Origin: Clavelina lepadiformis
Taxonomy: Eukaryota > Chordata > Ascidiacea > Aplousobranchia > Clavelinidae
Length of the DNA: 64,000 bases
Assembly (NCBI RefSeq): GCF_947623445.1
Contig: NC_135247.1
Coordinates: forward strand, 18,044,501 to 18,108,500
Direction of reading: 5' to 3'
In this document: piece after piece, positions 1 to 50,852 of the stretch
How positions within the stretch are numbered: position 1 is the first letter of the stretch
Layout: the number at the start of each line of letters is the position of its first letter
Program-made: the position numbers and the translations under genes
The notes under the pieces: model-generated
Told to the model about the DNA's origin: nothing
Database searches by the model: none
Seen by the model: only the letters and a program-made list of their open reading frames with translations

Positions 1-2561
1 CCACCACCTCTATTTTGAAATTTTCGTTGATATTTGGCAGAAAAAGCTGTATGTTTAACCAGGTATTTCTCAGTTCTTTTTCGTATGGAGTCCAAATCGT
101 ATTTCTAAATGCATATAGAATAAAAAAAATTTTAAATCCACTTTGCTATAAAGAGCATTGAGTTCCGAGAAAATGTTGAAACATTTACATATCGGCCTAA
201 AGTTTATTTCGTACTTGTTGTTGCTTTGGTCCTTAAGATCTAATCGGAAGTCGTGAACTGTATGTAAGTTTTTTAGCATGTAGTAAAGTTGTACACAATA
301 TGTATTTCCAGGTGTTAGAAAAGGGGATGAGAACTTCGCTTCATCGTCTGATTGAACTTCCGCTCGCAAAACGTACCCTTTAGAAAGCACAATACAGAAA
401 TGATCGTATTCAGGCGTAGGCCTACTAAACACTTGATGCGCACAGATATGTGATTAAAACGACATAAACGCGTATGAAATCTGAAGAGAGACGTTTCAGT
501 TAGCTGAAGTACTTTTTAACTCTGCGAGGTTAGGGCCATTTAGAGCTTTTAAATAACAATCTACTTGCCGTGTGCTGTTACCTGCTGGACCATTTATAAT
601 ATTTCGGCTGAAGACTCTCTGCCAACCCACGCTTGAGTAACCGCATATCGGTCGTCGAATGTTTTCGAAGTCGCAGTCAACATCGACTTCAAAACATACA
701 CTGATTAATGCATATAACATCAAGGGTTTTTAGAACTCATTAATACTTTTGTCAGGATGGACATTTCTTATGGCAACGTTTTAACGTTATGAAATACCCA
801 ACGAAAACCGCGATATTTGCTCACCTACGCATTGTGGTATTTGACCCCATGTTCCGTTTTCATTGCACCTTCCCACAACGTCATCTTTCAATTTATATCC
901 AACATCACATACATATCTCACTTGGGCTCCATATATGTATTGGGTACTGCTGGCGATCTCGACTGAGCCATGAATTGGCGAAATTGGCGATGGACAAGGA
1001 ACGGCTGCAATGACAAAATACAAATCTCTATTAATACAACTATTAGAAGGAATTATTTCTGCTCAGCGAGTTCTTGAAGAAAAACCTGTGCATTTTGGTC
1101 GCGGTCCCATCCATGCACCTGACACTCCGCATGACAGGAAATTTTGACGGTGTTCTAGTTTGTATCCTAAAACGGAGAACAAATTCATTCAATTGGATGT
1201 TTATTGTCCGAACACTGAGTTTTCTTGAAACTACGAGGTATAGTTATCTCAAATTTTGTGAAATGAAGGTAACTCTTGTATAAATAATTGCTATTACCTG
1301 TTTTGCAAAAGTAGAAGACTCTTTTTCCAAAATGGAATTCGTCTCCTGTCATGTATCCGTTCACGAGCTTTACAGGAGTTTTGCAATCCACCGGTTCGCA
1401 TTTGAAATTCTCATCGACATACCGCCATATTCCGCCTTCCACGCAAGTAATTGTCGAATTTCCCAGCATAATATATCCTATTAAACGCACGTAACTTATA
1501 TTACTGCTACATGTTTAAATCTTATATACCAAGAACTATCAATTCCCCACCTAAGCGGCATTGATAGGAGTTAATGGATCCCACTTCAAAGGTTCCGTCG
1601 AAGTTGTCCGGATAACTTGACTTTAGCCTTGGAGGTGGCTGACATCCAGCTACGAAGAAATTTTAAAAAGAATTCCACATTTCGGTAACGGTTAAGCTTT
1701 CGTCACATCTTTGATGCTGTGATGACAGTGAAATCTATAACCGAATAACTTACGTCGACAGATGGGTGCAGTCCCAGACCAGCGTTTGTCTGAACGACAA
1801 ACTCTCGTACTCTGGCCCACTAAAATGTATCCGTCGTTGCAGCGGTAGGCGATACGTGCGCCGTACGTAAATCTATCTCCATCAATAACTCCATCTCCTG
1901 GAGGCGTTGGCTTTGTACAGGGTCCCTCTATATACATTTGCACACATTGTTACCCAACCGGTTAGAGACCTATGATTTACACAGGTCAGGCATGTGCTGC
2001 GTATAATGTTTAATAAGAAAAGCATAACTCGTGTGACCGGGATTAAAACACGACATTCCACAACTGTCGTCACATATGCATCTTTTCAATCCTCCTCTGC
2101 AGTCGTCATCACTCCCGCACTGTTTTCTGCACGTTCTTCCCGGCTCGATTCGTGACAGATCCTTTTGGCAAGTTTGGCAAAAGACTCCTAAAAAATAAAG
2201 CAACACAGACGGATTTTAAGGCACGTATTTCCTAGAATCTAGGAGATCTAAGAAAATCTATAATCTAGGACCTAGATTGTATGAAATTAAAGGTAAAACG
2301 TAACAATATGAGAATAAGGTCGTTGTCGTTGTGGGGCCTTTATGTTATAGTTGGCGGTTTTATAAATATCAATAGAGTTTTTTTTGTTTGATTTTTCCCG
2401 TAAGATTGTGTCTATGATTTTAATTTGTAGTCGTTTTTATAATACCTGTTTGTAGCTTAAGTCATTTTCATAATACTTGTTCAGTCAATTTGTTTCAAAA
2501 ACTTACCCTGCAGTGTCATATAAACGCACGATGAGAGAGCGAACAGGCTGTAGATCAGCAT
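1..2561 (-). CDS. Gene A: secreted WAP-CCP-MAM mosaic protein, 5' part only
   Basis: Partial gene running off the left edge. Exons (coding, minus): 2507-2561, 2038-2187, 1754-1927, 1551-1649, 1298-1477, 1086-1166, 825-1004, 582-686, 189-377, 1-46. Exon 1 encodes a signal peptide starting MLIYSLFALSSC with donor gtaagt. Exon 2 is an 8-Cys WAP-type module ([18 protein letters not shown]). Next come four CCPs with the C-C-W-C pattern; CCP2 and CCP3 are split over three exons exactly as in genes B-D. The MAM domain begins in the 582-686 exon (VDVDCDFENIRRPICGY). Introns are phase 1 throughout, and no stop interrupts the frame. The donor after exon 2 is weak (gtcaca). The signal peptide and absence of any membrane segment so far suggest secretion. 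It is the most divergent of the four paralogues in the MAM region. No ligand can be deduced. Confidence 0.82.
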
Positions 2562-2583
2562 TATTTGAAAACGAAAAAGTTGA

Positions 2584-2592
2584 TCTTATCTT
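2584..2592 (-). promoter_or_regulatory. GATA-type motif upstream of gene A
   Basis: On the minus strand this reads AAGATAAGA, about 25 bp upstream of the gene A start codon. AGATAAG is the consensus for GATA factors. A similar motif lies just upstream of gene B. A short motif of this kind occurs often by chance, so this is a weak call. No TATA box is evident here. Confidence 0.25.
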
Positions 2593-4832: not shown

Positions 4833-4838
4833 TTTATT
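4833..4838 (-). other. Poly(A) signal of gene B
   Basis: AATAAA on the minus strand, 74 bp downstream of the gene B stop codon at 4912-4914. The position is right for a 3' end and supports the terminal exon chosen for gene B. Confidence 0.6.
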
Positions 4839-4911: not shown

Positions 4912-7900
4912 TTAAGAACATTTATAATTATAAATTAGTGGATTCCATCTGTTTCCGGGTGTACAGGTCAGAACAGGATTGTTGTTCAAGGTCTGAAGTA
5001 TGTCTTCGCACCGCACTTGAAGTGTTGCTCCAATCTCATATTCAAATAGATTCCAGTCAACAATTTCTATGCCCGTTGGTATGGTAGGACCAAAAATACG
5101 GCAACCTTTCGCTGTTGGAAATAGATGGTCATGTCAATTGTAGTTAAGATGAAAAATTTCCGGACTGATAACCTTTAATAACACAAAATTTTAAATAACA
5201 TTACCTTGACAAACTGGTGGTTGATGGTTCCATTCCAAGCTGTCCAAGCATCGCAAGAAACTTTCTCCTTGTAACGTAAAGCCGGTATCACATTCAAAAC
5301 CTACAAGGGAGCCGGGACGACCGATTTCCAATCTACTCGCCTGGTACATGGAACCGTTTGTAGGGGCAACTAATGGAGGGCAAATTGGTACCTCTGCGAA
5401 CCGAAGCAAGCAGTGTAGGTGTTATATAATGCAACAATGATTAGCAAGGACTGATGTGCGGCCTCTAATTACTTTCTCGACACAGGTTCCCGGTCCACTG
5501 TGGTGTGCATTCACAAATATAACTGTTGCCATCTTCTTTGCAAGTTCCATCGTTATCACAAGGATTTATACTACACGGGTCGTTAACTGTAAAACAGTCA
5601 TGTAATGGTAGTTAAATAAGGAAAGTTTAAACCGCACTAAATTCATCTCTAGTGCGTGCTTTTCCGTTGATGCAGCATGTACATAAAACCAGAGCTATAT
5701 GTAAAGTTACCATTTTCACAATTCGTCCCATAAGCACTGCCCAAGCAAACGCACAAATATATACGACCACTGCGGTGGCAAGTACCGCCATTTTTGCATG
5801 GGAAATTGCTGCATGGATCAAAGCCTGCAAATGAAGAAGTGCGAAAGAAATATTTGAAAAAGCTTCCGCCACTAATGTGAACACGGAAGTATTTTAGAAG
5901 CAAGTATATGATTGTAATGATCTTATATAATATATAAATATTCGATGATTAGAATACTGAACTAGGATAAGCATTTTGAAAAATCGACTATACTTCCCGC
6001 CTTTATCACCGAGTATATTAATTGCTTACTGCAAGAAGTTGGAGAGTTTTTATTCCAAGTCCCATGTTCTGTGCACGTCATTTCCGTGTTTCCGGTCAAA
6101 AATTCATTTCGATTTTTGCATTCAAACGAAATGGTCGTTCCTTGAACGTAACTATCGTGGCTTCCTCCGGAGATTTCTATGGATGCTGGCACTTGAGGGC
6201 GATCGCAACGGATAACTTCGTACAAATAAACAAATTTAAATTCAAATTGACTCAGTGTAAATAATTTTTGTTGTTTTACTGCTCAGATGTATTTGACTAG
6301 GCTTTGCATGTCATACTTGCAGCTAGCAAGTAGAAAAGTTTATCTACCATTTTCGCAAGTATCTCCCGAGTATGGTTCTACGCAGTCACATACAAAAGAG
6401 GTCTCTGTATTTCGGCAAGTTCCGCCATTCCGACAAGGAGAACTGCTACATAGGTCGATGTCTGTGAAAAAATTACTACTTTAAACTTGGATTTGGCGAA
6501 AATGATTTGTAATGTCTTTCTCTATGCTTCGTCAGGAGGTTTATTTTAGAGCTGAAAAGATTCAATAAATCCTTGCCAAGCATCTTACCGACTTCGCATA
6601 TGAAATGATGCCTGATGGTTTGGCAATTAACGTTGTACCAGAACCGATGAGGATTCGTATACACCACACCGCAATTTTTTCCGTTATTGTAAGTTTCAGG
6701 CTGGTTGCTGCCCCAACGTTGAAATCTTTGTTCCCCCCGCAGAGGTACTCGGCTTCCATCTGAATACCGCCAAGTTCCCCTCAATTTTTTCAAACCAATG
6801 TGGTAAACCCCGTGATGCGACAGAAGGTTCATGAGTGTGTCAAAGATCCTTTCAGTTTTCAGTGTCGCCAGCCGTCCAGGCAATTGAGCACACTTTGCAG
6901 CTGAATCGCCGTGGTTTAACTCTTGCTGATACAGCCTGTATATCTTGTTGTTTACCGTTGTCAGCTCTACACATGAAAGCATTGAGTGCAATTTTTTTTT
7001 TAATTCAAAGTTTTCGTTATCAGCCTTTCATTCATCTCTGATTTCTGCATAACTTGATAGCTGTTTATAACCCAAGCAAAACAGGTTTTGAAATAGTCTG
7101 ACACTCACCAACTCCACCATTGAGACAAGGTTGAGTGAAACATTCCCTGCTTTCTGTTGCCTCTCCCTCACATATCGCACCACCTTGTGGGTTTTGGCAA
7201 GTTCTTCGCTTGATTTGCTGACCTCTGCCACAAGATTTTGAACACGAGCCCCATCCGCCCCAGCCAGTCCACCCAGCTAAAATAATTCACAGTATTACGG
7301 TATAAAAACAAAAGCAAGTGTCGTCGGAAAAATACACAACTATGAAGAGGTTCAATGGAAAAACATGCATTTAAAGATTATTCGCCAAAGTGTGTCGAAA
7401 GCGTTAAGCTCGTTAAATGTTAATGCTTAACCAGAAACAAAGTAAAACGCACAAGGACAAGACTTGTCACATCTGTCCCATTCATCGTCATATTCTGCAG
7501 TCAAGGAACACCAGTCAGCAAGACCAATTTTAGATTCAATGCAAGCTTTATAGGTTCTTCCTTTGTAGACGAAAGGAAAATGACAATCCCCGGAGTCAGT
7601 GCATTGTCGTTCTAAACGTTGTAAAGTGTTTGTCAAAAAGTAAAGAATAATTTGCATCTTACATGCAGCAATGATATGCCAAGTAAACCTTTTACTAACC
7701 CACACACTCAGGAAACTCATTTGACCAAGTTCCGGAGCGTCGGCAATATATGGTTGGTTGTCCGATCATTGTATAGCCTTCATCGCATGTAAATGAAACA
7801 CTTCTGTCTGCTGCAACTTTTTCCCCAGCAGCTCTTGACAAGGTTCCGTGAGCCGGTGTTTGAGGAACAATACATCGACTCTCTGCACAGGTTTAAGTAT

Positions 7901-10900
7901 TACAGCATAACATGAAAGCCTTTTGACAACACAGATTTCTTATAAGTAGGCTACCTTCACAGACAGGGGTTGGTCGATTCCAATTCCCGCTTCTCAGACA
8001 TGTTGCTTTCAACGTCTCAGATAGCTGATTTTTCATGAAGTAACCTGGATCGCATGAGTAAGTGATTGTCCTATCCAATAACACTCTGTTGCCCGATGAC
8101 GGTGAAACGGATCCATCGGTTGGCGCAGGAGGCACCAAGCAATCAAGGCCTGAGAATGCATTTATTCAAGCTACATACATTCCTTCTTAAAGCTTTAATG
8201 TTACATATCAGTACTTCTTATGCATGATTTGAATGTTGCTTACGTATTGAGCAATCCTTTCCTTCGTATCCGTGCCGACAAAAACAAGTGTAATCATCTA
8301 TCCTGTTGATACAAGTTCCTCCGTTTTGACAAGAATCCGGAATACTACATTCGTCACCTATAAAAATGGAATGAAAATGTTTTTATAATGTTTGATTGTT
8401 CATGCAGTTTTTATCTATTCCTACACCCAATAAATGTTTCGGTTAAAGTTGCTTGATAAGTCTGTCTGTCACATTTTGCTTTCACTTACGGCAGGGCGTA
8501 TTTTCCGAAAACGAAATGTCATCAAGTTCAACTGTAGTCAACGATCGAGAGCTTTTTGCCGTAAAATGAACCTCAAGATCGTTTCTCGACGATGGAAATG
8601 AATAATCCGTCCCAAGCCAGGTGTTTCTGGGTTCCAAGCGATTGAAAGACCACAGCCGTTGACTTGTAAATGTAAAAAGTATTTAAACATTTACTTGAAT
8701 GATTTAGTCAACCGGCATAGACAACTAGAGGGATTTGTCAATGCCAAATTACAATTTTGATTAAAACTATCATAGATACCTTGATCCTGTCATGGATAAG
8801 TAGAAATCACTTCCACTCTCAAACTCCAAAACTCGGTAATAAAACCTCAAGCAAACTTGAGAATTGCGGGAAATACTGGGACTGGATAAAATCGCTTCGG
8901 CATTTGTTTGTGATCTCTCAAAGCTTGCTTTGGCAATATACCCTGCAGAGAGCTATAAATGATAAAGGTGGCCATGTTTTTTGACAAACTGTAAGCATGG
9001 AATCTTATAACATAAAAGCACCTCTTGCAGCTCCAACGCCTCTGCCATGTGCTCCAGTCTTTAAAAACGTGCGATTGAAATTCATTCCCGAAGTTGTGAA
9101 ACCACAAACCGGTCGTCGAAAGTCTTCAAAGTCGCAGTCCTTGTCAACTATTTCATGATGAAACATGCACAGCTAGTCAGCTACTTTGAATAATGTCGTA
9201 AATCTAAAAAGCGCAAGAGCCATCGATTTATATTAATACTGACCCACACAAGTTGGGGCTTCGCCCCAGTTGTTGTTTTCGTTGCACCTCCCTCTCTCAT
9301 TTCCAACCAACTTGTAGCCGTCAGCGCATTTGTACCGTATTTCATTCCCGTAGGTTAGACGAACACCTGCGTCGATCACAGTGCCATGCATGGGAGCGAT
9401 TGGAACTGGGCATTTCTTTGCTGAAAATAGACGTTTGTGTGAAGAGTAAGTTTTGGGAAAGGTCAAGAAAGCATAAATGTGACTGACCATTACAAGCTGG
9501 CACCACTCCCTGCCATTTACCGTTGGTGGAACAAGAAATAAAGTTTTGTCTTTGGTTGATCTCATAACCTGGAAATGAAGTCAAAATGTCGCAGAAAATT
9601 TAGTTCACGTTGTCAAGTATATTATATGAGTTCTTTTGTATATACTGTAGTTCTTTTCAATTATGTCATAATTTAACAAATGGGCTTGGAAACATCCCAC
9701 TTGTACACCATGACTGAAAGCGTTGTCGTCGAAGGTGCATAAATAAGATGACAACATACCAACGTTGCAGTGATAAAAAACTCTTCCTCCGAAGAAAAAG
9801 TCGTCGCCTTCGTAATAACCATTGTTTATTTCGCTGGGCGATTTACAATTTACTTTGGAGCAAAGGTACCTTGGTTCCGTCCAACCATCTGATGTGCAGG
9901 TTATGTTGGGATTTCCGGATAAAATAAAACCTGTTATAACGTCATGTGAGAAAGGTGTGTGTGTTCACAATTCATAAATATTCCACCAAAACCTTGTTGC
10001 ATTCACTCTGAAAATCTGCACTTACTATGCACGATAAACATTAGACTTTAAGTCAAAGAAGCGGGGTTTACACCACCAGAATTTATCACTTGAAGGCTGC
10101 GTTTTGAAACTTTATAGCAAACGCACTTACCAAAGCGGCAGCTGTAAGTGACAACATCTCCAGTTTCATAAACGTCTTTGCTTGTTTCTGGGTATGAGCT
10201 TGACGTGCGAATGGGAGTCGAACAAACAGCTGATGACACATAACCGATGCAGAGAATTGAAATTAAAGTTATTGATTTACTCTGCAACTACTGTGGAACT
10301 GCAGATAAAATAGATTCTTACTAGCTCAGTGGTTTCATTTACCTTTGCAGTACGGTGCTGAACCCGTCCACTTCTTGTCGGATCGGCAAGTTCTCGTACT
10401 GCTGCCGACTAAAACATATCCATCATTGCATGTGTAGATGACCTCATTTCCATAAGCTCTTTCTCCTTCTATTACGGCGTTTTCAACAGGTTCGAGGGCT
10501 TCGCATGGGGCGCCTTAAACAAACCATATTTGATCGTAACATCTAAGGTATGATGATACGGTATTTGCAACAAATCTAATTGCAGACGAGCATTGCGTTC
10601 ATGAACGTTAAAGACGATGACGTTCCCAAGTATTCGTTTTTTTAAACTGTTTTGTAAAGTATATTGTTTGCCAGTTGTCACCACAAAATCGTGTTTCTAG
10701 GTTGCTTCATTTCAAAACAAAAACACTTCGTTTTGTGCCAAAGCAGCTTAACGAAAAGTGCCAGTAAAAGAAATGGTGTCGTCTTAATTGCGTATTATGT
10801 CTTACTTGGGTTATAGCAAGACTTTCCACAAACATCATCGCACAGGCATTGTTTCGAAGAACTTCTGCAGTCAGAGTTTGTGTCGCAAAACTTCCTGCAA

Positions 10901-11256
10901 TTCCTACCCTCTTCAAGAAGCGATAAATTGCGCACGCATGTTTCTTGTCCGGTCGAAAGCAATACTGCAAAACGAGACATGCAATTAGTTAAAGGTACTT
11001 GTTGCCGGAAACTTGATAAGTATTACTTTTCTTAAGCACTTTATTTTCCAAAATCAGATAGAGAGCGAGACCACTGACACGGTTTTGATCAGACCGTTAA
11101 GATATCAACTAACTATACTGTCAACAGCAATCCTAATATTATTAATATTCCAAACCGGTTTGTATACATAAACGTCAAAAACTATTGTATGAACTCCTTA
11201 CCTTGGTAACAGAACGTGAACAGAAAAACACTTCTCTGCATTCTTCCAATCTTCAT
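4912..11256 (-). CDS. Gene B: secreted WAP/CCP/MAM/EGF/FN2/TSP1/C-type lectin mosaic protein
   Basis: Complete 22-exon gene, 1162 aa. Exons: 11202-11256, 10806-10964, 10343-10513, 10131-10229, 9760-9930, 9488-9568, 9244-9420, 9022-9147, 8780-8942, 8490-8662, 8244-8357, 7955-8149, 7700-7882, 7453-7611, 7109-7276, 6589-6966, 6348-6461, 6030-6215, 5711-5824, 5473-5586, 5205-5393, 4912-5111. Domains in order: signal peptide (MKIGRMQRSVFLFTFC), WAP-type, CCP x4, MAM ([13 protein letters not shown]), EGF, CCP x2, fibronectin type II (CHFPFVYKGRTYKAC), TSP1 (WTGWGGWGSCS), C-type lectin, EGF, CCP, EGF, EGF, CCP x2. There is no membrane segment or GPI-like tail, so it is probably secreted. The lectin domain has QPE where sugar binders have EPN/QPD and lacks WND, so canonical Ca2+/sugar binding is doubtful. 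Introns are phase 1 except inside MAM. The FN2 exon uses donor gtgcgt, chosen because it alone keeps phase. Function unknown; an immune recognition or complement-regulatory role is inferred. Confidence 0.88.
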
Positions 11257-12474: not shown

Positions 12475-15400
12475 CTATGGACTCATGTTCGAAGAAGATA
12501 TGTCTTCATCCGCAAGATCCATCATTCTTGGAAGCAGAGATGCTGGGATATCTAATGCAAGAGATTAAAGTATAAGATGCTTTCGTTTTGATAGTATGTA
12601 GCCTTTCTTATTGCTCAATGTGTACAGTGATCGAGAACACGAATTAGCCTACATAGTTTGCTTTAATTATACCGACCTACTCACCGAATTCACATATAAA
12701 AGGGCGTTTTTTGTTACAAGAATAATTATCCCATGTATCGGTATCTGTCCTCAAAATTACGCATGGATATAAGTAACTGTAACTTGGTTGTCCTCTGGCC
12801 CAGCGCTCAAATTTTCCTTCCCCGCTTAAAGGAACTCGACTACCATCTGAAAACTTCCATCTTCCGTCCAATCTTCTTATTCCAATGTGGAAATATCGTC
12901 GACGCGGCATCTGCCGAACCACTTCATTGAAAATGCTTCTCGTTTTAAGCACTGCCAGTCGCCCCTGTGATCGAGCACATCTTGCTGCGGCGTCATTATA
13001 AGTAAATTCAGCCTTGAATAACCTGTAAATCTTGTCTTCGAACCCTACAAATATAGGAGTAATTAATCGCCGTGTGTGCATTTATATTAATTTATAGCTT
13101 GCCAGAAAAATCGAAAACCCAACTGTACTCTATACACACACAGTGAAGTAATACTCCTTTAGGGGATATCAGGCTAAAAACAGAAACTTTCGATAATTCC
13201 AAAGTGTATGGAGAAGACTAAAAGTTTGTGCATTAGTGTTGAAGAAAGTGGACCAATTCGCCAAAACATTTTAGTAAAGACTCTTATTACTGATTTTGAA
13301 TTATTTCGACGTTTTCACCACAAACAAACCCCGCTGATAACTTCATCTTGCGTTTTATCGCCGCAGTTTTTGATGTAAGCTTAATACTGTGGCATCAATT
13401 ATATCGCATAGTAAAGTTATTAGTAGAAAAATGCTTTGACTACTTACTGAAGCCATCACGATCAAGACATGATTGTATGTTACATTCCCGTGTCTCTAAA
13501 GCTTGTCCCTCACAGGGTTTCCCGCCTGTTGGGTTTTGGCAGATTCGGCTCCTGGTTTGGTGACCTTTGACACATCCTTCTGAACACTCACCCCATTTGC
13601 TCCATTCAGACCAACCAGCTATAATACATTATAAATGTGTAGCAAATTGTTTCTATTTGTGGTACGTACAACAACGAAATTTGTTCTATCAATTTTTTGA
13701 AGACACTGAATCTTAAACAAAGATAAAAAGCGACACTTTTGTTACGTTGACAATATTTCTTTAAGTCTTGTTACAACATATTGGTTGAAAATTAACGAAT
13801 TACACTTTTAGCACTAAATTTTGTTGTGAGTAGCCTATTTTGAGAAAAGACAATAGTTCAGGGCAACATAAAGCGGTTACCTATATATGATGTTAATGTT
13901 AAAAATTAACATTAGTCTAGTACACATTGTATGCCGTTAGATATATTGCATTTCTGATCCACTGCTGTTAGTTGCAAGGGAGCAATCATTATGATTGTGT
14001 TCAAAATTGAAGTTGTTAGATAAGAAATTGACTAGAAATAAATGACTCTTACTTTTGCATGCTCTATCGCATACGCCGAAGCTGTCCGTGTATGTTGGAG
14101 TGAGTGAGCACCAATAGTATCCACCGCTAGTATAATAAGGACAAGTTTTATAAGTCTTTCCTCCGTATTTAAATGGAAAGTGACATTCGCCTTTAGATGT
14201 GCATCGTCGTTCTGTTGAATCCGATGTGTTCAAAGAGCATGAAAAATCCTTAGTTTTAGTATTAGGCTTTCCACGTTGCGTTGTTTTTAAGTGCTACTTG
14301 TACTAACCTACACACTCAGGAATTTCGCTTGACCAAGTTTCTGCACCGCTGCAAAATATCGTTGGTTGCCCGATCATTGTATAACCTTCGTTGCAGCCGA
14401 ACACGATGCTTTCGTCAATGGAGATTTTTGTTCCTGCAGTTTCTGACGAGGTACCGTCCTCTGGTAGTGATGGTGCGGTGCAATGAATCTCTACAAAAAC
14501 AGTAATTGAACTATAGAACGGTTTCTAGTCGAATATTGAGGGGCAATTGCAAGGAACTTTTACCTTCACAAGTTGGAACGGTGTGATCCCAGTTTTTATT
14601 ACTTAGACAGATTGCTGTTAAGCTTCCCGTTGGCTGATTGCTCATAAAGTATCCTTGGTCACAGGAATAGATAATACTACCACCCGGTTTTACTTGTTTA
14701 CCCGATGCTGGCCTCACAGATCCAAACGATGGCGCTCGAGGCACAACACAGTCAGTTTCTACGAAAGAATTGCAGGTAGAACAACCTTACATATTGCACA
14801 AGTTTTACTTCATGTGAAGTTTACGTTTCACAGCATCACAACAATCGGTTTTCGACGTTGATGACTTTGCCTGCTCATTAAACTACGTTTGCTGCTTACC
14901 TATTGAGCAATCTTTTCCTTCAAACCCCGTGCGACAAAAACACTTGTAATCGTTGATCCTGTTGACACAAGTCGCTTGGTTTCGACATGGGTTCGGGTTA
15001 CATTCGTCACCTATGGAGGAAATATTGAAAGCAAAATATTGAAGAAGTTGCATGTTAATATTCCCATCATCATCACTTTGTTGCTGATCAGCAAATTGTT
15101 TGCCTTTAAGCCGCCTAATCTTCTTTGTGTTGAATGAAAACTTGCAGAAAAGAAAGTGAAAAACGCAAAAAAATAATTAAATTATTAATTTTTAAACTTG
15201 CCACAGCGAGTATTTTCCGAAAACGAAATGTCATCAAGTTCGACTGTAGTCGACGATCGAGAGCTTCTTGCCGTAAAATGAACCTCAAGATCGTTTCTCG
15301 ATGATGAAAATGAATATTCAGCACCAAGCCAGATATTACGAAGCTCAAATTGATTGAATGCCCAGAAACGCCGACTAGTGAACAAATTTATCAACATACG

Positions 15401-28980: not shown

Positions 28981-30494
28981 CCTTACGTTGTGGAAAATAA
29001 AAATCTATGAAATCACAAAGAAAAGTTCCAGCACAGCATTCGCTTCTTGAAATATCAAGAGCCTCTTGAAACCACCTTTGTCGTTTCGTCTTTCAAAGCT
29101 TCTCCTAAACTCTCGATACACTTGACTGCAGTTCGTAAACAATATTTACCGTTTGGCTCGTCCTGTCAAGACGCGCTGACGTAAACTTCTCAATCTTATT
29201 GCCTTCGATTGGCAACTACGTTACCTGTTTACGTTTAATCGATCCCGCGTCTACCACTTGGCTGACAAAGACCAACCCGCATCACGTGAGTAACACTCAT
29301 GCCGGCGTAGAAGTAAACACGAGTTTTGGCATTCTCCAAAAGTCTAGCAGCTAGTTATGTCGGTCGTAAACACTTCCGGTTGATACGTGCTACAATCTAC
29401 CTTCGCCATGGAGAAGTAATAAATTGTAAATTGCGAAAAGAGACACTATTTTGAAATATAAAAATACTTTTCCAATATCTAAATGTAAGGCATTTAAACC
29501 GATTTACGTTTTGAATTAATGCATTTATTTTCATTGTGCAGGCTACGTTAATCCAAGATTGACTGCAATTATGTCGTTTTCTGCTAAGCTAACTGCAATT
29601 ACTTAACTATTCTCGGTAAAAATTTTAGACCATCACTAAATAACGTAATCTTTGTCAAAATCCTGTGGTAACCTTTCAGCGTTAGAATATCAATGTAGGT
29701 AACGTCTTGTACGTTTTAGGCGGCTTTGTCTCAGTTTTCCGCCTTCTGCGTACGATTGAGCATTTGTTTGTAGGGTTGTTATAGCAATAAGCAACATATT
29801 TTGGCTCCCCGCAGTTTAAAGTGGAAAGTGAACCACGCGATACTAAAATGACTTATACTGCCTGCTTGTAATAAGGTATACTAATTTCTAATTAAGACAG
29901 TTGAAAGCAGTAATTCAATTGAACTGTACAGGCAGACTTTGCGAAACGCTTGAGGCTGTAGAAATAATCCCGCAGACCTTTTTTTAATGAGGAAGTATTT
30001 TTGTCGAAAGCCCAACTTGACGCCCTTCGCTCCTGACGTGAGTGGACTTTCCCTTTAATTCTTCAAGCAGTTTCGATTACTTTGTTTTTGCTATGATACA
30101 AAATTGACCGGAATGCCAGGTGTACATACTAGATTGCGGAAATATACCGACCGAGCGCTTGTCTCTGCCTTTGCTCAAGCTAAGTGATGAAAGAATGCAT
30201 ACTCTGGCAAAACTATTTGTACTCTTTGCACGAAAGTCGTTGTGGTAGCCTGAGGGGAAGAATCTTCGAGATTTTGCGTAGACTGAAATTCATCTGGTTG
30301 TGTTGTAATGGGAAGCATCTTGGAAAGCAGAGTACATTAATATCTTACGCGGGAAAAGCTATTGTATACGCGAGAGTTAATAAATGGCATGCCAGCCTTC
30401 GAGCGCACATTTTGCCGTTTGCATGTAGTTTTTGATTATTATTACTTTATTTAGTTGTCGAAGCTACTTTGTAAATAGCAATTGAAGTTTAATC
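28981..30494. promoter_or_regulatory. Divergent promoter region between gene D and factor B gene 1
   Basis: About 1.5 kb separate the start codons of the minus-strand mosaic gene D and the plus-strand factor B gene 1, so both 5' control regions must lie here or in introns. A palindromic E-box CACGTG is present near 29285 and a kappa-B-like site near 30043. No convincing gene is present. The open frame at 30184-30435 has no domain and no splice connection to factor B. Confidence 0.5.
30043..30052 (+). promoter_or_regulatory. Kappa-B-like site upstream of factor B gene 1
   Basis: TGGACTTTCC differs from the NF-kappa-B consensus GGGACTTTCC only at the first base. It lies about 440 bp upstream of the factor B gene 1 start codon and follows a TGACGT motif. 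Immune-gene promoters often use kappa-B sites, but a single near-match in 1.5 kb can be chance. No equivalent was seen upstream of factor B gene 2. Confidence 0.3.
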
Positions 30495-33400: not shown

Positions 33401-36400
33401 GCCCGGCCATGAGATATATTTTGTGATTGATCTGTCAAAAAGTGTCTCTGATACAGCTTTGAACAACTCCTTAACATTTTGTGTGAAGCTCATAGAAAGA
33501 GTAAGTTATAAAGTGATTGATACAAGTCCGCTTCACCTCTTTCTGGATTTGTTACGCTTAATTTTCTTTGCTTTTTTACTTTCCTTGAAAAAGTAAGATA
33601 AATTATTTTCCAGCTTAACGCAAACGCCACCGGTGAGATCAACTATGGCATTTTAGTTTTTGCTTTAGAAACGGAAACTGTCTTGAACATAAATGATTTT
33701 TCCCCGTCACCACAAGAAGTTATCGAAATGATACAAAATATTTACAAGGACCGAGGTGATTTGCACTGTATACTGTACTGTACATAATGAGTAATTCAGT
33801 ATTCGTCATATGTTTTGGCGAAAAGAGAAACCTTTTTTATTGACTTTATATTTTTGCAGCCAATATTCAAGAAAGAATTAGGCAAGGCACCAACACTTAT
33901 AATGCTCTTGAGATCTTGGCGAAAGGACAACTCGCATTTTCGTATCAACTGGACGTCAACAAAGAGCGAAAACGTCACGTTTTTATTCTGACGGACGGTA
34001 AGAGATCAATAGATTTACACACCTCCAATGATCGGTTGAGTTGTAAACAGAGTTGTGGTTGCTGTTTGTTTAATAATGAAAACTTTCAAAAATATATTTA
34101 ATAACAATGAGGTAAGTTGTGTCAGAAGGTGAGACGAGATGATTTTTCAAGCAGCTTAAAAGTCGAAATTGTCTTTCATCTAATCATCATCTTCATCTAT
34201 CGTTCTATCATCATTTATCTGTGTATTTGCTTTACATATCTATTCAGGTAAACACAACGATGGTCCGGAACCAGAAGAAATAGTGAATATTGTAACTCAG
34301 AGGGAAAATCCACCGACGGTAAAGAGTCTACTGTATAATACACTTTATTTGCAATATAAGTTATGTTTGTATATTTTACCAAAAACTTTTGTGAAACGAA
34401 AAATGTAGAAACTTTGAAAATAATAGTAAATCATCACTGATTCCAGTTTTATAGCATCACCACATGCGCTGAATGCATCAATTCTGTTGAGGGCGAAGAA
34501 GCTTACACAGAATTGCTGGGATTAGCTCAGGGAAAACTGGAAAATTTCATTTTCATTGACGATTTTTACAACATTCAAAGCAAACTCGATCAAGTTACTG
34601 ATGCTAAAATTGGTAAATTACGTTTTGACCGAAGCCTGCACTTATAGACATGTACAGTATATGTTCTACGTATAACTACAAATATTGTAGAAATATACAA
34701 ATGTTTCCATATAGTCCCTATTGAGTACAATTTCGTTTTCAGATTACAGCGCATGCGGCCAGGCTGGTGACGTTGGCAGCGTAAAGCAGCAAGCAAGAGT
34801 GGGAAGGGTGTTGGGAGGCAACAAGACCATCGCCGCAGATAGATCCTGGCCATGGCAAGCTGTCATAACCAGGTTTCACAGCAAAGTAGTGGACGTGAGT
34901 TGCTGTTTTGTTTTAGAGTGGTAACATCTCATTCGTTCTCGCCTTATTTGTTTCTTTACGTTCACAATCTTGCTCAACTTAAAAATATTTTACACAGACT
35001 TACAAAAATGGAAACTTTTACGGCGGCGGAAGCGTCATCAATAATCGCTGGGTTTTGACAGCCGCTCACTTGTTTGAATATGAAGACACGGAAGACCCTG
35101 ACTGGGCAGGAAATTTTGTTGTCACTTTTGGTAAGTCACAAAAATGAAGTAATATTGATTAAATCGGCGATATGTTTTCCGTTACAAAAGCTATAAGAAA
35201 TATATCAATACAACATTTACAGTATCTATAACAAATTAGCTGATACTGGTCTGGTAGAATTGCATTAAGATATTCACATTATTGGTAACCAGGACATCGC
35301 ATGTATCCTTTTCAGTTGTAAACACAGATTGTATGAAACAGGTCTTCATAAACGCCCAACGAACGTCGCGAAGAAACTGTTACCAATTGTCAGAGCATAT
35401 GTCGCCGAGAGGATTGTCATACATGAAAATTATGGGCTTTATAACTTTGATGTTGCACTCGTAAGTAGGCTATGTTGTGATAATCCATTACAGAAACCGT
35501 GTCTGAGGAAGTTGTTTATATACTTTGTGTATATTTGTTTGTAATCGTTATTTATTACAGTCTATTTTCATTTTTGGCCATCATGTTGTTAACGAGTGTT
35601 TGTATCTGCATATTTTGATTTCGTCTTGCCCAATCATGATGTTTCCTGGTAATCACATCACGGCACTTCATTTTCTCTATAACAACACCCTCATGCGCGT
35701 TTGCTTCACAATAAACTAGTGAAAGCCGAGAGGTTAATTGCGGTTAACATGTGCTATGACCTTACTGGTGCGTTTTGGGTCCTTATTTGTTCACGAAAGC
35801 CTAAGAAATAGGATTGAATTTTAGCCTGGGCACCAAACAAAGAACCTGCAACCGTAATCCATTACGACGTGAGTTTATAACCGATCGATTGCGTTCATTG
35901 GCAAGTATCAAAAGACTGTTCTATTGCCCCTTTTCATAAGACTGAGACTGTTCTGAGAAAATGTTTTCGATATATCACCTGTACAATCGAATCTTTATTT
36001 TCCAGGTCAAAATCGGCCATCAGCTAATTCCAGGTAAAACTAAATGGGAAGAACCCATCCTGAACGTTGGTTGGGTGAACTACACTGATTACATTCGCCC
36101 TGTCTGCTTGCCTTGTATGGAGAACAACTGCCTTGAAAGTTATCTCAGAGACCAAAGTGTTTTAAATGGGAATGAAACTGAAGAGGAAAGTTGCACAAAG
36201 CAAAGTAACATCGATTTCTTCATAGAAAGTCTTGTAGTTGTCATAAAATGGATTCACGAGCACATTTTTTGTGAAGATATTGAAGTTATCTGTTTCATCA
36301 TTTCCAACAACTTTAGGCGACTTCCTACTTGAAGCTAACCGAGCACAAAAAACTATCCTGTCGGTCGCCACAGGTTTCGGACACACGACACCAGCAACAC

Positions 36401-37050
36401 AAAAGCGCATACAGCGAACAGCGCGGCCTTCCAAAGTGCTAAGGCAAGGTCTTTTGAGAATTCAAGATCACGATCTGTAAGTGCTTCAAGTGGTTTTAAA
36501 TTATTTCAACATAAGGCGATTATGCTCATACTGGGCAGTTAAACGACTACACAGTATACAGTACTTGATTTGTTAATACGATCCTGTTGCTTAAAGCGTA
36601 ATAAGAATATTTTGTCTTAAAACAGATGCAGAGATGTTGCTAAAAACATCGACTGGGGACGCGATGACTTCCAAGTTATTTACACAGAGAATATGCTCTG
36701 TGGTGTCTCTGGAATCGCCAACGAAGGCGTCGATACATGTAAAGGCGACAGCGGCGGTCCGCTGGTCCGAGAGGTGAGAAATTATGATTAATTTCTTACG
36801 TAATGCTTTCGCCTTGAAGGAAAATAGAATATGATTTTAAGCAACTTGAATCGACTTTCAAACATAGGTCCATGACTCAAACACCGGGCACTCGTGTTGG
36901 GTGCAAATAGGCATTGTGAGCTGGGGCTGGGGATGCGGTCAAACCTACAGGGATGAAGGGATTGACAGACCAATACCAGGATACTACACAAATCTGATGA
37001 GAATGATGCGATGGGTCAAAGCAAATATCACGGAAAACCCTGAAGAATAA
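30495..37050 (+). CDS. Complement factor B (gene 1 of a tandem pair)
   Basis: Complement serine protease that binds C3b to form the alternative-pathway C3 convertase; secreted. Nineteen exons: 30495-30564, 30666-30821, 31429-31671, 31739-31876, 32056-32232, 32299-32499, 32809-33021, 33283-33500, 33614-33755, 33860-33997, 34248-34318, 34447-34612, 34743-34894, 34998-35130, 35342-35460, 36006-36204, 36317-36476, 36626-36773, 36868-37050; 1008 aa. Order: signal peptide (MKKIFLSISVLLLL), WAP-type, CCP, WAP-type, CCP x3, VWA, trypsin-like domain. The VWA metal site is intact (DLSKSVS, GTNT, LTDG). The catalytic triad is intact (TAAHLF, NFDVAL, GDSGGPL), with Asp six residues before the Ser, predicting cleavage after Arg. 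Vertebrate factor B has three CCPs and no WAP. Unusual: the His-loop disulfide is gone (GGGS and AAHL), and RVLGG precedes the protease domain. Ciona is known to have several factor B genes; I cannot say which this is. Confidence 0.95.
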
Positions 37051-44207: not shown

Positions 44208-47200
44208 ATGAGAATAACGTTGCTTGTATTATCGGTGCTACTTCTATTAGGATTTGTGACTTGTAAGCACTTGCAACGTGAGTTGAAACAAATTAGGCAA
44301 AAATTAAGCTTGAAAATTTAAAAGATGTTATTGCATGCTTTGACTTAATTGGCGTATTTCATAAAAAATTCGCTTTTGTTTTATGAACTTGCTTGTCATA
44401 CAAGCTATGGCTACAGTAAAAATTAAGTTGCTTTTTGCGTAGATATAGTAATACAGGTAATCGTAGCGCAACTAAATGTACAATACATTCATGTTTATAG
44501 AAAAGTTTGAGTTGAAATTTATTAGTTATTAATAGCGTGTGGTTTTTCACGTTTTGCCAAAACTACACTAGAGTAAACTTTTTTTCATAGATTTGTATAA
44601 TTGGGCCGACACTACAGTAGACTTCCTACAGCTTCCAAAAAAGCGGAATAAAATGTTTTCATTAACTTTAAAGCTTTCTGTAATGTTAGTGTATTCCAAT
44701 ATCTAAAAATCCAATACAACTTGTACGTATTCGAAGCACACGGTGTATAGCAACCACCAATGTTGTCGGTCAATTCAGTTTCTATTTTCTTGTTTACAGA
44801 GACGTGTGGTCCTCGCAACCAAGCCGCCGCTGATGCAATTGGAAGGCCTTGCAGGAAGATCTGTGAGCTAACGCATGACATAACTAAGGACAAATGCAAG
44901 GGAAAGAAATTGTGTCTTTGTGATTACGAATGCGGTTTCTCCTGCATCAATCCTGGTGAGTTGTTGTTACAAAAACTTAAACGTGATAAGACCCGATATT
45001 GATGTTGTTAAAACGGACAGACAGAGTTCATTTTAAGAACTCGATTGAACCATAAACATCTTCGTATCAGCAACTACAATGAGCAAATTTGCTTTATTCG
45101 TAAGTTGGCTATCGCATATTTTACTCCCTCTATGCTTGAGAACCGCAGAAGGAAAGGAAGTTTGCTGTATTTGACCACCAGCTCATTATGCATATTATGT
45201 TCTAGACTGTGATCGTTGTTTTGTAGCGAAGCTGTCTAAAGCCTTCACGAATCTCATTACTGCAATGAATATAGCTCGTCGTAAATCGCGAACAACAAAA
45301 CGCGATGAACCTAAAGAATAAAAGACGTGAAAACGGTTATAAGTTACACCCCCCAAATGGGTTTGTGGGGGAAGGACATGTGTTCTTTCCTTTCTCTAAA
45401 TCATGTTATGTTGTTAAAATGCAGAAAACAAATGTGACGGCAAACCTCCTTCCATTGAGAACTTGGAGAATATCAAAGTGATCAGAGTGAAGACGCATCG
45501 AAATGGAACCGACTACGAAGCTGAAGTTTTCGGTTCTTCTTACGAGTACTCGGACCAGGCAATATACAATTGTCAGCCAGGTTACAAATTACAGCCAGAT
45601 AACATCCGGTCGTTTTGCCACGGACGTAAAGGATGGACGCATATTACCGGTCAATACAGACCCAGATGTTTACGTAAGTTTCATCATGAAATGCTGTACC
45701 AGCTTTCGCGGTCGTCGATGAATAACAATCGGCTAAATTGAATTTCTAGTGGCATGCAGGAACTTTGATATCTTGGAAGTTGTAAACAACAACATGATCT
45801 GTGGAGATACATGTGTTACAAATGCTGATTGCCAAGCGAATACGAAATGCATGTGTGACGGTCATTGCGGTAGGAGATGCGTCAATCCAGGTTGTTACGG
45901 AAATTTTGAAAGCTTCACAGCACACTTTTTAAGAAATGAACGCCGTCTAACTTTTCTTTTGTCAAATTACACAGACGTGGATTGTGGTACAGCGCCTCCA
46001 GTGGAAATGGCAACAATCGAATACTCCGGGGAAGGGTTTGAAAAGGTTGCGCACTACAGCTGCGCAGAAGGTTACTTCATCAGTTCCGGATCGCCTTCTA
46101 GGTCGTGTACAGGCGGTGGTACATGGGACGGACAACCCTTGGTCTGCGAACGTATGTTAGACACACATAAACGAAGTTAGAAACTGAAGAACTCAACAGC
46201 AACTAGCTTTACATTCTGAATTGTTTAGGAGTTGAATGCGGAGACCCATCGCGCAGTATAGAAGAAATGGGTGGCGAAGTTCGGGATTGGGTGCCGGGAC
46301 CATACCACCCCGGACAAAGTTTCACTTTTAGATGTCGTTCCAGCAAGAGAACGTTCGGCAGCACCGTGCGCACTTGCCAGAACAACGGTCGATGGAGCGG
46401 GAGGCCAACTGTGTGTGACGACAAGGATGGTGAGGGAAAATAATCCTAACCATAGGCTATTACGCCAGGCTTGTCCATGGGACATTTTTTTCTGTCCCAT
46501 CCCATCCCATCCCATGCCATCCCATCAAAATACGATTCAATAAATGTTATTAAATTTATGGAAATTTAAGTCTAATGTCTATTAGAATTGACTACATGTA
46601 CAAAGAGAGATACAAAACGACAAAATTTATTGACTTTGTTAACTTTAAAGTTCAGAAAAGTTGTCTATCTATGACAATTTATTATCATTGGTACTCATAT
46701 TCCGAGTCACTGTGCTCATTTAGCAAATTTTCAATGCCATGGGAATTGCAATTCGTGCTGTCCCATCCCATCCCATCCCATGGGCCATTTCCCATGGGAT
46801 TCTCGTGGGAATCCCATTCCCATGGACAAGCCTGCTATTACCCCTACGAAGTAGAAGTTTAAGTAATTTCCGTGGATGAACCTAAATAAGTATATCAGAC
46901 GTCTAAGATATGAGCTATGTTTGATATGACATGACGTATAAGATAAGATATGACGTATATGAAACGATGTTATTTGGTTGAGTTACATTTAAGATCAAGA
47001 ATGTTATAAAGAGGTTTCACAAAAAATTCGTGCGTATTTGGACCTATTTGGAAAGATTTTATACAAGCGATATCCAGATCACTGTATTTTTCAACAGATT
47101 CTCAAGGTCGTGCGAATAACAGATGTATTCATCCTGGGATCCCAGTCAATGGAAGAATAATAGGGAGGAGTCGATTGGCACCTAGAGACCTGGAAGTGGG

Positions 47201-50200
47201 CGACACGGTCATCTTCGAATGTAACCCAGGGTACTCCATGGTTGGGGAGAGAGTGCAGGAATGCCTTGAATTCTTACAGTGGACTGGAAACGGTGCACCA
47301 TTGTGCGTGGGTGAGAATTTTGGATTAAGATTAAGGATAGTTACGAGAATGAAACGCTGAAATTATTTTTTGAAATATTAATACTGCAGTATGTGAAACC
47401 ACTTCCACCAAAACGTATGAAATTCACATGTACAGCACACATGCGTAATCCAAGCCTTAATAACAAGCAAAATAACAAGCAGTTCCGTCACAAAAATATT
47501 ACTTTATAAAAAGTATCTTTACTCCACTGCTATGTGTAGATGATGAGATGCTATTTTGAAAAAAGTCTTCGTTTGGTTAGTGGGTGAATATTAGTGCAAT
47601 CGGTCGTTCAATGCAATCTGTCTGTCTCCTATTTCTCGCCTTCGACTGTAATTAAGTATTTTTCCCATCAGTCTCGTGGTCAAGATATTGACTTTATCCC
47701 TCCATATTCGCACATATGTTTCAAACAATTTTGTCTTATCGTTGAAGGTCATTTTAATCGATTTCTCGTATCTTTAATAATGTCTCAGACCCTCGCTTTC
47801 GAGACAGCGTTTCAGCTGCCATTGGCAAGCTTGAGGAGAGCGCCAGACACATCCAGGAGAACTCGAAGCGTCATGGAGCCGGAAGATTCATCAGTAACAC
47901 ATTTGGGCCCGGCCATGAGATATATTTTGTGATTGATCTGTCAAAAAGTGTCTCTGATACAGCCTTGAACAATTCCTTAACATTCTGTGTGAAGCTCATA
48001 GAAAGAGTGAGTTGTAGAAATATTACATAGAAATGTCACAAATTCTTGTTGCGTGCAACCCTTCTCTGTGAGCGCGATTTTGTTTGAATTATATAATATG
48101 ACTTTGCTCACTTTCAGCTTACCGCAAACGCCACCGGTGAAATTAACTATGGTATCATCGTCTTTGCTCTGAGGACGGAAATATTTTTGAACTTGATCAA
48201 CCTTCAACCTTCAGCAGAAGGGGTTATCGAAATACTCAGAAATATCTACAAGGATCGAGGTAGCAATATCGCGTTAATGAGCAAATCGGCCCTTTGTATA
48301 TTTAAGCGCTCAGAGAAGCTGGTATTTGCTATCATTCGTTCGCTTTGATATTTGCAGCCAATATTCAAGAGCGAATTAAGCAGGGCACGAACACTTATAA
48401 AGCGCTTGAAGTTTTGGCGCAACAACTTGAGTTCTCCTACATTCAGGACGAGAATAAAGAACGGAAACGTCACGTTTTCATTTTGACGGATGGTAAGAGC
48501 GGCAACTTATAACTGGAAATGTTTCTTTAAAAGGCGAAGTGTTCACTTTCTGTTTCCCTAACACGCCCACTTGCATTCATTCAAGGAAAACACAATGATG
48601 GGCCAGATCCAGAAGACCTGGTTTTCGTTCTCAGTCAAAGGGAAAACCCCCCTACGGTATAGCCATAAGTACTGTACTATATGCAAATAGGCTTGGGTTT
48701 CTCAGTGTCATTAAATCTTCATAAATGCAGTAGGTAAAAAACTGTAACATCTATTTATCATCTTGCGGTAGTTTTATAGCATCACAACTTGCCTCGACTG
48801 CATCGACCCGGTAGAAGGCGAAGAAGCTTACACAGAATTATTGGGACTAGCTCAGAATAAATACGAGAACTTCATATTCATCGACGACTTTTACAACATC
48901 CAAAGCAAGATTGACCTGATTACGAACGCTACGATCGGTAAGTTGCTGTTACGTCATCTTTGTGAGGTTAGAAATGTCAATAAAGGCGAAAGCTCAACGC
49001 CTTTAGACTACTTCAACCAAAATCACACATTTCATTGGTTCTGCTTTTCCTTAGATTACAGCGCATGCGGCCAGGCCGGTGACGTTGGAAGCGTCAAGCA
49101 GCAAGCAAGAGTGGGAAGGGTACTGGGAGGTAACAAGACCATCGCCGCAGATAGATCCTGGCCATGGCAAGCCGTCATAACCAAGTTTCACGGCAAAGTA
49201 GTGGATGTGAGTTGAACACCGGTGACTGGGGCAAGGTTTTAAAGCTTCATGTCTGTTGGTGCAACTTTTTATCAATCCAACAAAATTGTCATGTGATGGA
49301 GAGAGAAATAGTTTGGAGTTAATTCTCTTTAAAATACTTTCCACAGACTTACAAAAGATCGAACTTTTACGGCGGCGGAAGCGTCATCAATAACCGCTGG
49401 GTTTTGACAGCCGCTCACTTGTTTGAATATGAAGACAAGGAAATTTCAGATTGGGCAAACGATTTTGTTGTCACTTTCGGTGCGGTCATTACTTTGATCT
49501 GAAAAAAATGACGTCGGTGTGAGTTACTGTAAAACTAATCCTATTCTTCTTTAAACAGGTCTTCATAAACGCCCTACAGCAGCTGCTAAAAAACTGCTCC
49601 CAATTGTCAAAATCTTTGTCGCTGATCAAATTATTATACACGAAAGTTATGCAAATTTCGACTTTGACATCGCTCTTGTAAGTGTACTTTATTAATGTTG
49701 TGTAAATTACTCTGAAAGCTTTTATGTCAACATTTCAGAAAAACATATCAATGAAGCCGTTTTTTAAAATGAGAAAGATTTTTTGCAGATCAAGATCGGT
49801 CACCAACTAGTTCCTGGAAGCGAGAGATGGGAAGAACCAATCTTGAACGTTGGTTGGGTGAACTACACTGATTACATTCGCCCTGTCTGCTTGCCTTGTA
49901 TGGAGAACAACTGCCTTAACAGTTACCTTAGAAAATACAATGATCTTGACGGAACCGAAAACGAAGAAGAAAGTTGCTCGAAACAAAGTAAAAATTTTTT
50001 GTAATAATTGTTGCCTGAATGTTTTGTCGGGTAAATGGTGATATCTATTAGTTTATCTATCTTTTAATGAACATCTTCTTATCAGGCGACTTCCTTATTG
50101 AAGCTAACAAAGCGCAGAAAACTCTTTTGGCGGTCGCCACAGGTTTCGGGCACACATTGGCAGAAATACAAGAGCAACTGCATCAAAACGCAAGACCTTC

Positions 50201-50852
50201 CACGGTTCTGCGGCAGGGTCTGCTGAAAGTTCAAAGTTTTGACTTGTAGGTTCTGATTACTTTCTTATAACTTTATTTTTCTGTTGTTCTGACCATCTCA
50301 GTACAATCATACGACCTACAAGGGCATAGTAACTAACTTACATACATTTTTATAAAAACGTAGATGCAACGACGTCGCCACAAATCATATTGACTGGGGT
50401 TTTGCTCCGCACGTCGATTACACCGACAACATGCTTTGCGCTGTTTCTGGGAACAAGCATGAAGCTGTTGATACATGCAAGGGCGACAGCGGTGGCCCTC
50501 TTGTTCGAGAGGTGAGCGTACATAATAGAATGCATCAAATACACACAAAAAGTATGGACGTAGAGCATTTTTTTGTCCTAAAATATTGAAGGTTTTTATC
50601 AAATTTGCTGCATCACATAAACAGAATTTAATCAGCATCTTAAACTTTTAACATCTTACTTTAATGAAGGTCTACGATCCTGACACCAAGCACTCGTGTT
50701 GGGTACAAATAGGAATTGTGAGTTGGGGTTATGGATGTGGACAAAGCTACAGAGACGTGGGGATTGATAAACCGACACCAGGATATTACACAAATCTAAT
50801 GAAGTTGATGCCGTGGGTTAAAGCACACATTACGGAGAATCCTGCAGAATAA
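44208..50852 (+). CDS. Complement factor B (gene 2 of a tandem pair)
   Basis: Same role and structure as gene 1. Nineteen exons: 44208-44277, 44800-44955, 45425-45673, 45750-45890, 45975-46151, 46229-46429, 47098-47310, 47789-48006, 48118-48259, 48358-48492, 48586-48656, 48772-48937, 49055-49206, 49347-49479, 49559-49677, 49789-49987, 50086-50245, 50364-50511, 50670-50852; 1010 aa. Signal peptide MRITLLVLSVLLLLGF; WAP-CCP-WAP-CCP-CCP-CCP-VWA-trypsin. The VWA site (DLSKSVS, GTNT, LTDG) and triad (TAAHLF, NFDIAL, GDSGGPL) are intact. Every intron has the same phase as in gene 1; most exon lengths are equal, and the others differ by whole codons (exons 3, 4 and 10). Identity to gene 1 is very uneven: exon 5 differs at 2 of 177 bases while the first half of exon 6 is strongly diverged, which suggests gene conversion. 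The His-loop disulfide is missing here too, and RVLGG is conserved. A MITE sits in intron 6. Confidence 0.95.
46465..46834. mobile_element. hAT-like non-autonomous MITE in intron 6 of factor B gene 2
   Basis: About 370 bp bounded by inverted repeats CAGGCTTGTCCATGGGA (from 46466) and TCCCATGGACAAGCCTG (to 46834). Flanking 8-mers CTATTACG (46457-46464) and CTATTACC (46835-46842) match at 7 of 8 positions, as expected for a hAT target-site duplication. CCCAT tandem repeats lie inside both ends (46495-46527 and 46761-46781). There is no transposase frame. Gene 1 has no such insert in the matching intron, so it arrived after the duplication. Confidence 0.75.

Follow-up and report, generated by a model that had tools for sequence, protein, structure and literature searches.

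Four lectin-bearing mosaic genes (M1-M4) and two complement factor B genes (FB1 and FB2) lie side by side in a 64,000-nucleotide stretch of chromosome 8 (C8) of the ascidian Clavelina lepadiformis (C8:18044501-18108500, hereafter the window). We lean towards reading the window as most of an alternative-pathway complement locus, in which recognition and convertase would be brought together as neighbours or within one chain. The initial annotation had proposed that the mosaic proteins act with the factor B pathway. That proposal gains genomic support from mosaic-type and factor-B-type exons that stand in line at several C8 loci and from intron-containing blocks that the clusters share.

Four mosaic genes are enclosed by three factor B genes

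The order and orientation first described, with four secreted mosaics on the minus strand facing two factor B genes on the plus strand, were confirmed for gene order, strands and domains. The divergent gap of 1.5 kb also held, the start codons of M1 and FB1 being 1515 bp apart; the intergenic stretch between them (28981..30494, no strand) is possibly a shared promoter. As a unit, the four mosaics and two factor B genes are arranged as the annotation had them, but the locus exceeds the window. M4 is cut by the left edge and extends ~3 kb beyond it (piece L001), and a third factor B gene, FB3, lies outside, beyond M4 on the left (C8:18033.1-18040.4 kb, minus strand). With FB3 on the left and FB1 and FB2 on the right, the four mosaics are thus enclosed by three factor B genes, the whole covering ~62 kb.

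Exon models come from a home-made gene finder whose splice weights are generic, and individual exons may therefore be in error; the finder skipped part of the VWA in FB1 and FB2, which was corrected by eye. Domains were assigned by Pfam for pieces of M1, M2 and FB2, and for M3, M4 and FB1 by profiles built from modules within the window itself. In the Pfam-searched pieces Sushi, WAP, MAM, EGF, Lectin_C, TSP_1, fn2, VWA and Trypsin exceeded their cut-offs. The claim that both families contain WAP and CCP modules was borne out by WAP matches of 22.1 bits in M1 and 24.1 bits in FB2 (cut-off 20.8) and by Sushi matches. Candidate signal-peptide exons with phase-1 donors (scores 7.7-12.1) were found for all six window genes.

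Protease exons appear to continue into mosaic-type exons at other loci

At 17.02, 17.04 and 17.30 Mb on C8, a second unit comes after factor B, opening with a WAP and closing with VWA-protease; at 17.80 Mb, a mosaic-type WAP, several CCPs and another WAP come after the factor B. These are the four WAP-followed loci examined outside a second cluster described below, and in all four a phase-1 donor replaces the stop in the last protease exon. The donors (scores 10.6, 5.4, 6.3 and 10.1) occupy a constant place, 16 nt past a W-x-K triplet, and the phase-1 acceptors of the WAP exon lie 60-106 bp beyond them. The predicted C8 junctions lead from 17020419 to 17020345, 17042095 to 17042011, 17295476 to 17295415 and 17799850 to 17799956. 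In all seven factor B units that no WAP follows (FB1-FB3, the C1 copy and three terminal second units), the donor place has a stop and no phase-1 GT. As a control for the donors, 215 domain ends were examined: a phase-1 GT preceded the next stop within 50 nt in 206 and was absent in nine, and with the best GT used each time, one of the 206 scored below 2.

The WAP and CCP domains of the second units at 17.0 and 17.3 Mb found their best match in a mosaic domain in 10 of 10 cases, though they run into VWA and protease; seven matches were clear and three, from CCPs adjoining the VWA, were weak (83-110), and the count is tempered by a comparison set that contained more mosaic than factor B domains. 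The WAP at 17.80 Mb scored 204 against a chimera head and 183 against M2 versus 102 against a factor-B-type WAP, and the first CCP there scored 149 as mosaic-type versus 91 as factor-B-type. We read the second units at 17.02, 17.04 and 17.30 Mb as mosaic/factor B chimeras, whatever their start.

FB1-FB3 keep the domain order and catalytic residues of factor B

FB1 (30495..37050, plus strand; signal exon 30495-30564) reads signal-WAP-CCP-WAP-CCP-CCP-CCP-VWA-serine protease and ends in a plain stop. FB2 (44208..50852, plus strand; signal exon 44208-44277) has an FB1-like domain order and also ends in a plain stop. The factor B/C2 order of CCPs, VWA and serine protease was found in FB1, FB2 and FB3 with own-module profiles, and with Pfam for FB2. 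When the FB2 VWA was searched against the PDB at E<=0.01, all 18 matching sequences were factor B or C2. VWA and protease of FB2 had also been tried as a joint query; thrombin came out on top (best 60 of 397 matches) with no family signal, and the VWA was searched alone instead.

The catalytic His, Asp and Ser are intact in FB1, FB2 and FB3. Residues have been lost in two second units (Asp to Asn in 17035; His to Gln and Ser to Gly in 17289), and at C8:17289-17291 kb (L011 4214-4312 and 5868-5954) an apparent dead protease unit stands behind an intact one. The metal site of the factor B/C2 VWA consists of DxSxS plus T and D; FB1 and FB2 have the whole motif, and FB3 and the C1 copy have DxSxS. 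Factor D cleaves factor B at an Arg-Lys before the VWA. Near this position, which could be placed approximately, FB1 and FB2 have Lys-Arg, FB3 and the C1 copy a single Arg, and the second-cluster units no basic residue. A stretch inside FB2 (46492-46842) shares 98.3% identity with C8:18863981-18864332 and looks like a dispersed repeat.

A second cluster pairs factor B blocks with mosaic blocks

Between 18.62 and 18.91 Mb on C8, each complete factor B block examined is followed by a mosaic block on the same strand, ~140-220 bp past the matched protease end. The cluster comprises 11 factor B blocks (7 distinct), five copies being read only as short junction stretches. In three of the 11 copies (2 distinct) a single open exon spans protease and WAP. 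None of 30 domain segments of the mosaic tails contained a stop, where a neutral simulation gave 9.2 stops on average and none of its 500 runs was free of stops; the simulation covered 5 domains in 6 copies, all full length, and treated the copies as independent, and the segments came from profile matches in open frames. By this measure the tails have been preserved as coding sequence.

No credible signal exon was found before six of six second-cluster tails or three of three second units (0-5 candidates each; 17.80 Mb outside the search), and the listed candidates fall within the factor B protease stretch. Among the seven second-cluster factor B heads searched, five are preceded at 126-127 bp by a signal exon whose donor is modest (3.4). 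Either the tails would be translated as extensions of the protease, or the factor B signal exon would be alternatively spliced to them. Skipping of the last protease exon as a way to reach the tail WAP was rejected, because the strong donor of the preceding exon is of phase 0.

Part of this cluster (C8:18.64-18.80 Mb; L019-L025 and L030-L034) is a near-identical tandem duplication with a period of ~79.4 kb, owing to which four pairs of junctions appear the same over 450 bp. Either a very recent event or duplication in the assembly could account for it. Between the two clusters, C8:18483860-18488460 (minus strand) holds one CCP and one WAP match.

Both families are concentrated on chromosome 8

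Genome searches scored 117 of 170 candidates for an FB2 query and 150 of 339 for a mosaic query. Among the 117 scored, at least 28 places extend as far as the protease end of the query. We count at least 25 factor-B-type protease loci, 23 on C8 and two on C1 (9.5 and 24.7 Mb); the count omits three weak single matches (C1:10.90, C1:20.24 and C9:2.01 Mb) and includes places classed without a VWA check, such as 16.90, 17.80 and C1:9.5 Mb. A VWA adjoins 15 of 16 protease units in the DNA examined. Among the matches scored, all those starting in the MAM part of the mosaic query (position <100) are on C8, where they form two groups, the window cluster and 18.70-18.91 Mb, both among factor B loci. 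The mosaic clusters span ~0.3 Mb of 209 Mb, and we estimate that a mosaic would rarely come to lie beside factor B by chance (~0.2% for one placement, the copies of a cluster not being independent). WAP matches in the genome at E<=10 fall on C8 (43) or on a C1 factor B (1) in 44 of 47 cases, for a search in which some of the C8 places were examined. A doubt over the WAP label, raised because Pfam WAP at E<=0.001 found two genome places only, was dropped in view of the 47 places at E<=10 and of single modules that pass the cut-off.

Blocks with introns have moved between clusters

A protease tree was built from 16 units and 200 columns; the 17.80 Mb unit was left out, the root is arbitrary, and FB3, the C1 copy and 17289 form long branches. 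The first units of the 17 Mb loci group with the second-cluster units (93/89, slightly short of the tool's threshold) and FB3 comes next; a supported branch (97/95) separates all of these from FB1, FB2, the second units and the C1 copy. Protease units followed by mosaic-type WAPs therefore look like one group.

The 3' half of M3, with its introns, recurs in the second cluster at 94.5% identity over 5.8 kb, and that of M1 at 96.1% over 5.2 kb; the protease part of FB1 recurs with introns at 17.04 Mb (91.3% over 2.4 kb). At 91-96% identity, these intron-containing blocks show that exchange between the clusters is fairly recent. WAP and CCP exons of mosaics and factor B on C8 have equal phase in both families.

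A possible coupling of recognition and convertase

The apparently joined exons at several loci are gene-fusion evidence and as such support a functional link between the mosaics and factor B. In the mechanism that we propose, the lectin, TSP1, FN2 and MAM modules would bind microbial or altered-self surfaces, the CCP modules would hold or control C3b, and factor B would cleave C3 at the mosaic-bound surface. Recognition would meet the convertase as neighbouring, presumably co-expressed proteins in the window and as one polypeptide elsewhere on chromosome 8, where the joins, if transcribed, would give a factor B protease carrying a mosaic-type WAP-CCP extension. We put forward more tentatively, as possible rather than probable, that such products could be self-targeting complement proteases, with C-terminal WAP-CCP and in the second cluster also FN2-TSP1-C-type-lectin, and that a fast-exchanging gene set on one chromosome could diversify recognition through EPN and QPD sites.

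The oldest complement pathway has factor B as its core protease, which as a rule is aimed only via C3b. If our reading is right, multiplied factor B genes, interleaved with lectin mosaics and apparently joined to them, would offer a second route for aiming the alternative pathway and a natural experiment on the coupling of recognition to convertase activity. Gene fusion would then predict which uncharacterised CCP proteins act with factor B.

Several observations weigh against this reading. The genome search found thioester-domain genes (C3/alpha-2-macroglobulin type) in several copies at C3:17.02-17.13, C3:20.03, C4:22.89 and C5:0.18-0.21 Mb and no C3-type thioester gene on C8, so the substrate is not linked to factor B. 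Outside the window locus and C1, 11 of 11 VWAs depart from DxSxS (nine DxSxD, one DxSxH and one DxSxK), which may weaken C3b binding. Because of this departure and the catalytic residues lost in second units, FB1 and FB2 look like working factor B and the chimeras look like derived forms. Six of ten full-length C-type lectin matches have neither EPN/QPD nor WND, and the splice acceptor at 17.02 Mb, with a weak score of 3.3, falls between the 10th and 25th percentiles of 206 controls. In the second cluster a TAA stands between protease and tail in 8 of 11 copies (5 of 7 distinct), and the sole phase-1 donor at the join, scored in six copies and identical in its letters in all 11, reaches 1.5, below 205 of 206 controls. 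The 11-copy alignment and the donor control thus led us to demote the second-cluster joins from simple fusions to doubtful ones. The ratio of non-synonymous to synonymous differences (pN/pS) falls only to 0.57 in the tails and 0.83 in the heads of the second cluster; the tail value nonetheless speaks for retention, and the comparison of selection between heads and tails is not decisive. Finally, symmetric phase-1 exons shuffle easily, so exon sharing need not mean common function.

This last point underlies the alternative of a neighbourhood without partnership, in which a duplication-rich region shuffles phase-1 CCP and WAP exons among unrelated genes and the mosaics are matrix or adhesion proteins. 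The domain exons do have phase-1 borders, blocks do move between clusters, there is the near-identical ~79.4 kb tandem duplication, and MAM, EGF, TSP1 and FN2 are also matrix modules. Shuffling among unrelated genes sits less well with chimeras that unite one and the same pair of families at several loci, or with tail domains that have been kept as coding sequence, to the extent that the stop simulation, with its assumed independence and open-frame segments, can tell. We consider this explanation unlikely.

That the joins are unreal seems to us quite improbable. Factor B genes would then end at their stops, and the WAP-headed stretches would be remnants that have lost their heads, or else independent genes whose first exons escaped notice. 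The second cluster, with its weak donor and its stop in 8 of 11 copies, fits such an account, as does the chance that the 79.4 kb pairs are assembly or haplotype duplicates. It leaves aside the four loci with phase-1 acceptors and normal donors at one position, the intact tail domains, and the contrast between tails and second units, where a credible signal exon is missing in 6 of 6 and 3 of 3, and factor B heads, where 5 of 7 have one. Equally improbable is the idea that the second cluster forms one transcription unit with alternative products, a single promoter yielding factor B when the signal exon joins the factor B WAP and a lectin mosaic when it joins the tail WAP: the phases agree (signal exon and tail WAP both phase 1), the tails have no credible signal exon of their own and the stop in 8 of 11 would be an ordinary factor B stop, but several kb of exons must be skipped, and three of 11 copies have no stop at the join. 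An alternative-pathway locus that couples recognition to the convertase remains the reading we prefer.

Domain composition of the mosaic genes

M1 (18994..28980, minus strand; signal exon 28980-28920) is predicted to encode 1710 amino acids in the order signal-WAP-CCPs-MAM-EGF-five CCPs-C-type lectin domain (CTLD)-unassigned domain-TSP1-TSP1-CTLD-EGF-EGF-CCPs and has its own stop. No membrane segment was evident on reading through the model. M2 (12685..17912, minus strand; signal exon 17912-17858) runs signal-WAP-CCPs-MAM-EGF-CCP-CCP-FN2-TSP1-CTLD and is without the EGF/CCP tail present in M3; the donor after its CTLD scores 8.9, and its modelled 3' end is provisional. M3 (4912..11256, minus strand; signal exon 11256-11202, stop at 4912) continues after the same modules with EGF-CCP-EGF-EGF-CCP-CCP, its order being signal-WAP-CCPs-MAM-EGF-CCP-CCP-FN2-TSP1-CTLD before that tail. 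A tandem fusion of tail-less M2 with M3 was rejected, as M3 carries its own signal exon. The 5' part of M4 in the window (1..2561, minus strand) comprises a signal exon (2561-2507), WAP, CCPs and the start of MAM; left of the window follow MAM, EGF, CCP, a short CTLD, CCP, EGF and CCPs. This CTLD is divergent as well as short and was found by eye, having been overlooked by the own-module profile.

The WAP modules are divergent, with C-x-C in place of the usual CC. Matches to the eight-cysteine WAP profile lie above Pfam's cut-off for M1 and FB2 and for two chimeric units; in the genome search the WAPs of M2 and M4 scored 19.2 and 17.7 bits, under the cut-off of 20.8.

EPN or QPD together with WND are the sugar-site motifs of C-type lectins, and EPN and QPD mark different sugar preferences. 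The second CTLD of M1 has a Lectin_C match, EPN and WND and is the sole CTLD in the window with sugar-site motifs; the CTLDs of M2 and M3 and the first of M1 are without EPN, QPD or WND. Among the best 60 of 150 PDB matches, those closest to the second M1 CTLD were multi-lectin receptors and collectins. A CTLD at 18.871 Mb (C8:18871471-18871833) has QPD and WND, versus EPN and WND in M1, and is predicted to differ in sugar preference from the second M1 CTLD, for which mannose is the predicted ligand.

The M1 stretch between the first CTLD and TSP1 (23207-23758, ~120 residues) had no Pfam match at E<=10, and a stretch resembling it by eye also follows the CTLD of M4. No collagen-like region was seen on reading the M1 and M3 models, which as wholes were not run against a collagen profile. 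In make-up the mosaics are unlike CCP-only regulators, for they have MAM, EGF, FN2, TSP1 and CTLD besides CCPs.

Comparison with known complement systems

Like vertebrate factor B/C2, the Clavelina genes have CCPs, VWA and serine protease with catalytic triad and DxSxS, and among solved structures the FB2 VWA is nearest to factor B/C2. They differ in their added WAP modules and in number, at least 25 factor-B-type loci versus two genes, and some units appear to continue past the protease into mosaic-type WAP-CCP exons. The lectin pathway of collectins, ficolins and MASPs also ties a recognition module to a complement protease, whereas the Clavelina protease is of factor B type rather than MASP and the M1 and M3 models, as read, have no collagen-like stretch. 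Horseshoe crab Factor C combines CCP, EGF and C-type lectin modules with a C-terminal serine protease in one chain that has no VWA. The modules and the protease are shared with Clavelina, where the modules come after the protease instead. Tandem secreted CCP genes also make up the vertebrate regulators of complement activation (RCA) cluster, unlike which the Clavelina mosaics add lectin, MAM, TSP1, FN2 and EGF modules and adjoin factor B.

Ciona, where the factor B genes are linked, resembles Clavelina in having several such genes with extra N-terminal modules. Among the papers listed by open-access literature searches there was no description of a cluster like the present one, in keeping with the annotation's view that it may be undescribed as a unit, and no account of factor B joined to lectin modules in that literature, most subscription papers lying outside the search. 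Closest to the cluster comes an item by Yoshizaki et al. from 2005, which by its title reportedly concerns triplicated factor B genes of Ciona. In the parts of the literature covered, no lectin mosaics are named beside the Ciona factor B genes, and the extra domain of ascidian factor B is given in the part consulted as LDL_A (PMC4714745), versus WAP in Clavelina.

Genes flanking the locus

FB2 has phosphoglucose isomerase as its right neighbour. The left neighbours of FB3 are a Gla-domain gene and an SH2 gene (L002-L004). In L003 (8064-9936) and L002, a Gla domain is followed by a membrane-like stretch and then by a tyrosine-kinase-like exon (22.2 bits, cut-off 23.1). This combination, like a cellulose synthase match on C9, is in keeping with a tunicate genome. 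Also left of the locus, L003 2580-5804 on the minus strand holds a retroelement-like open frame of 1074 residues.

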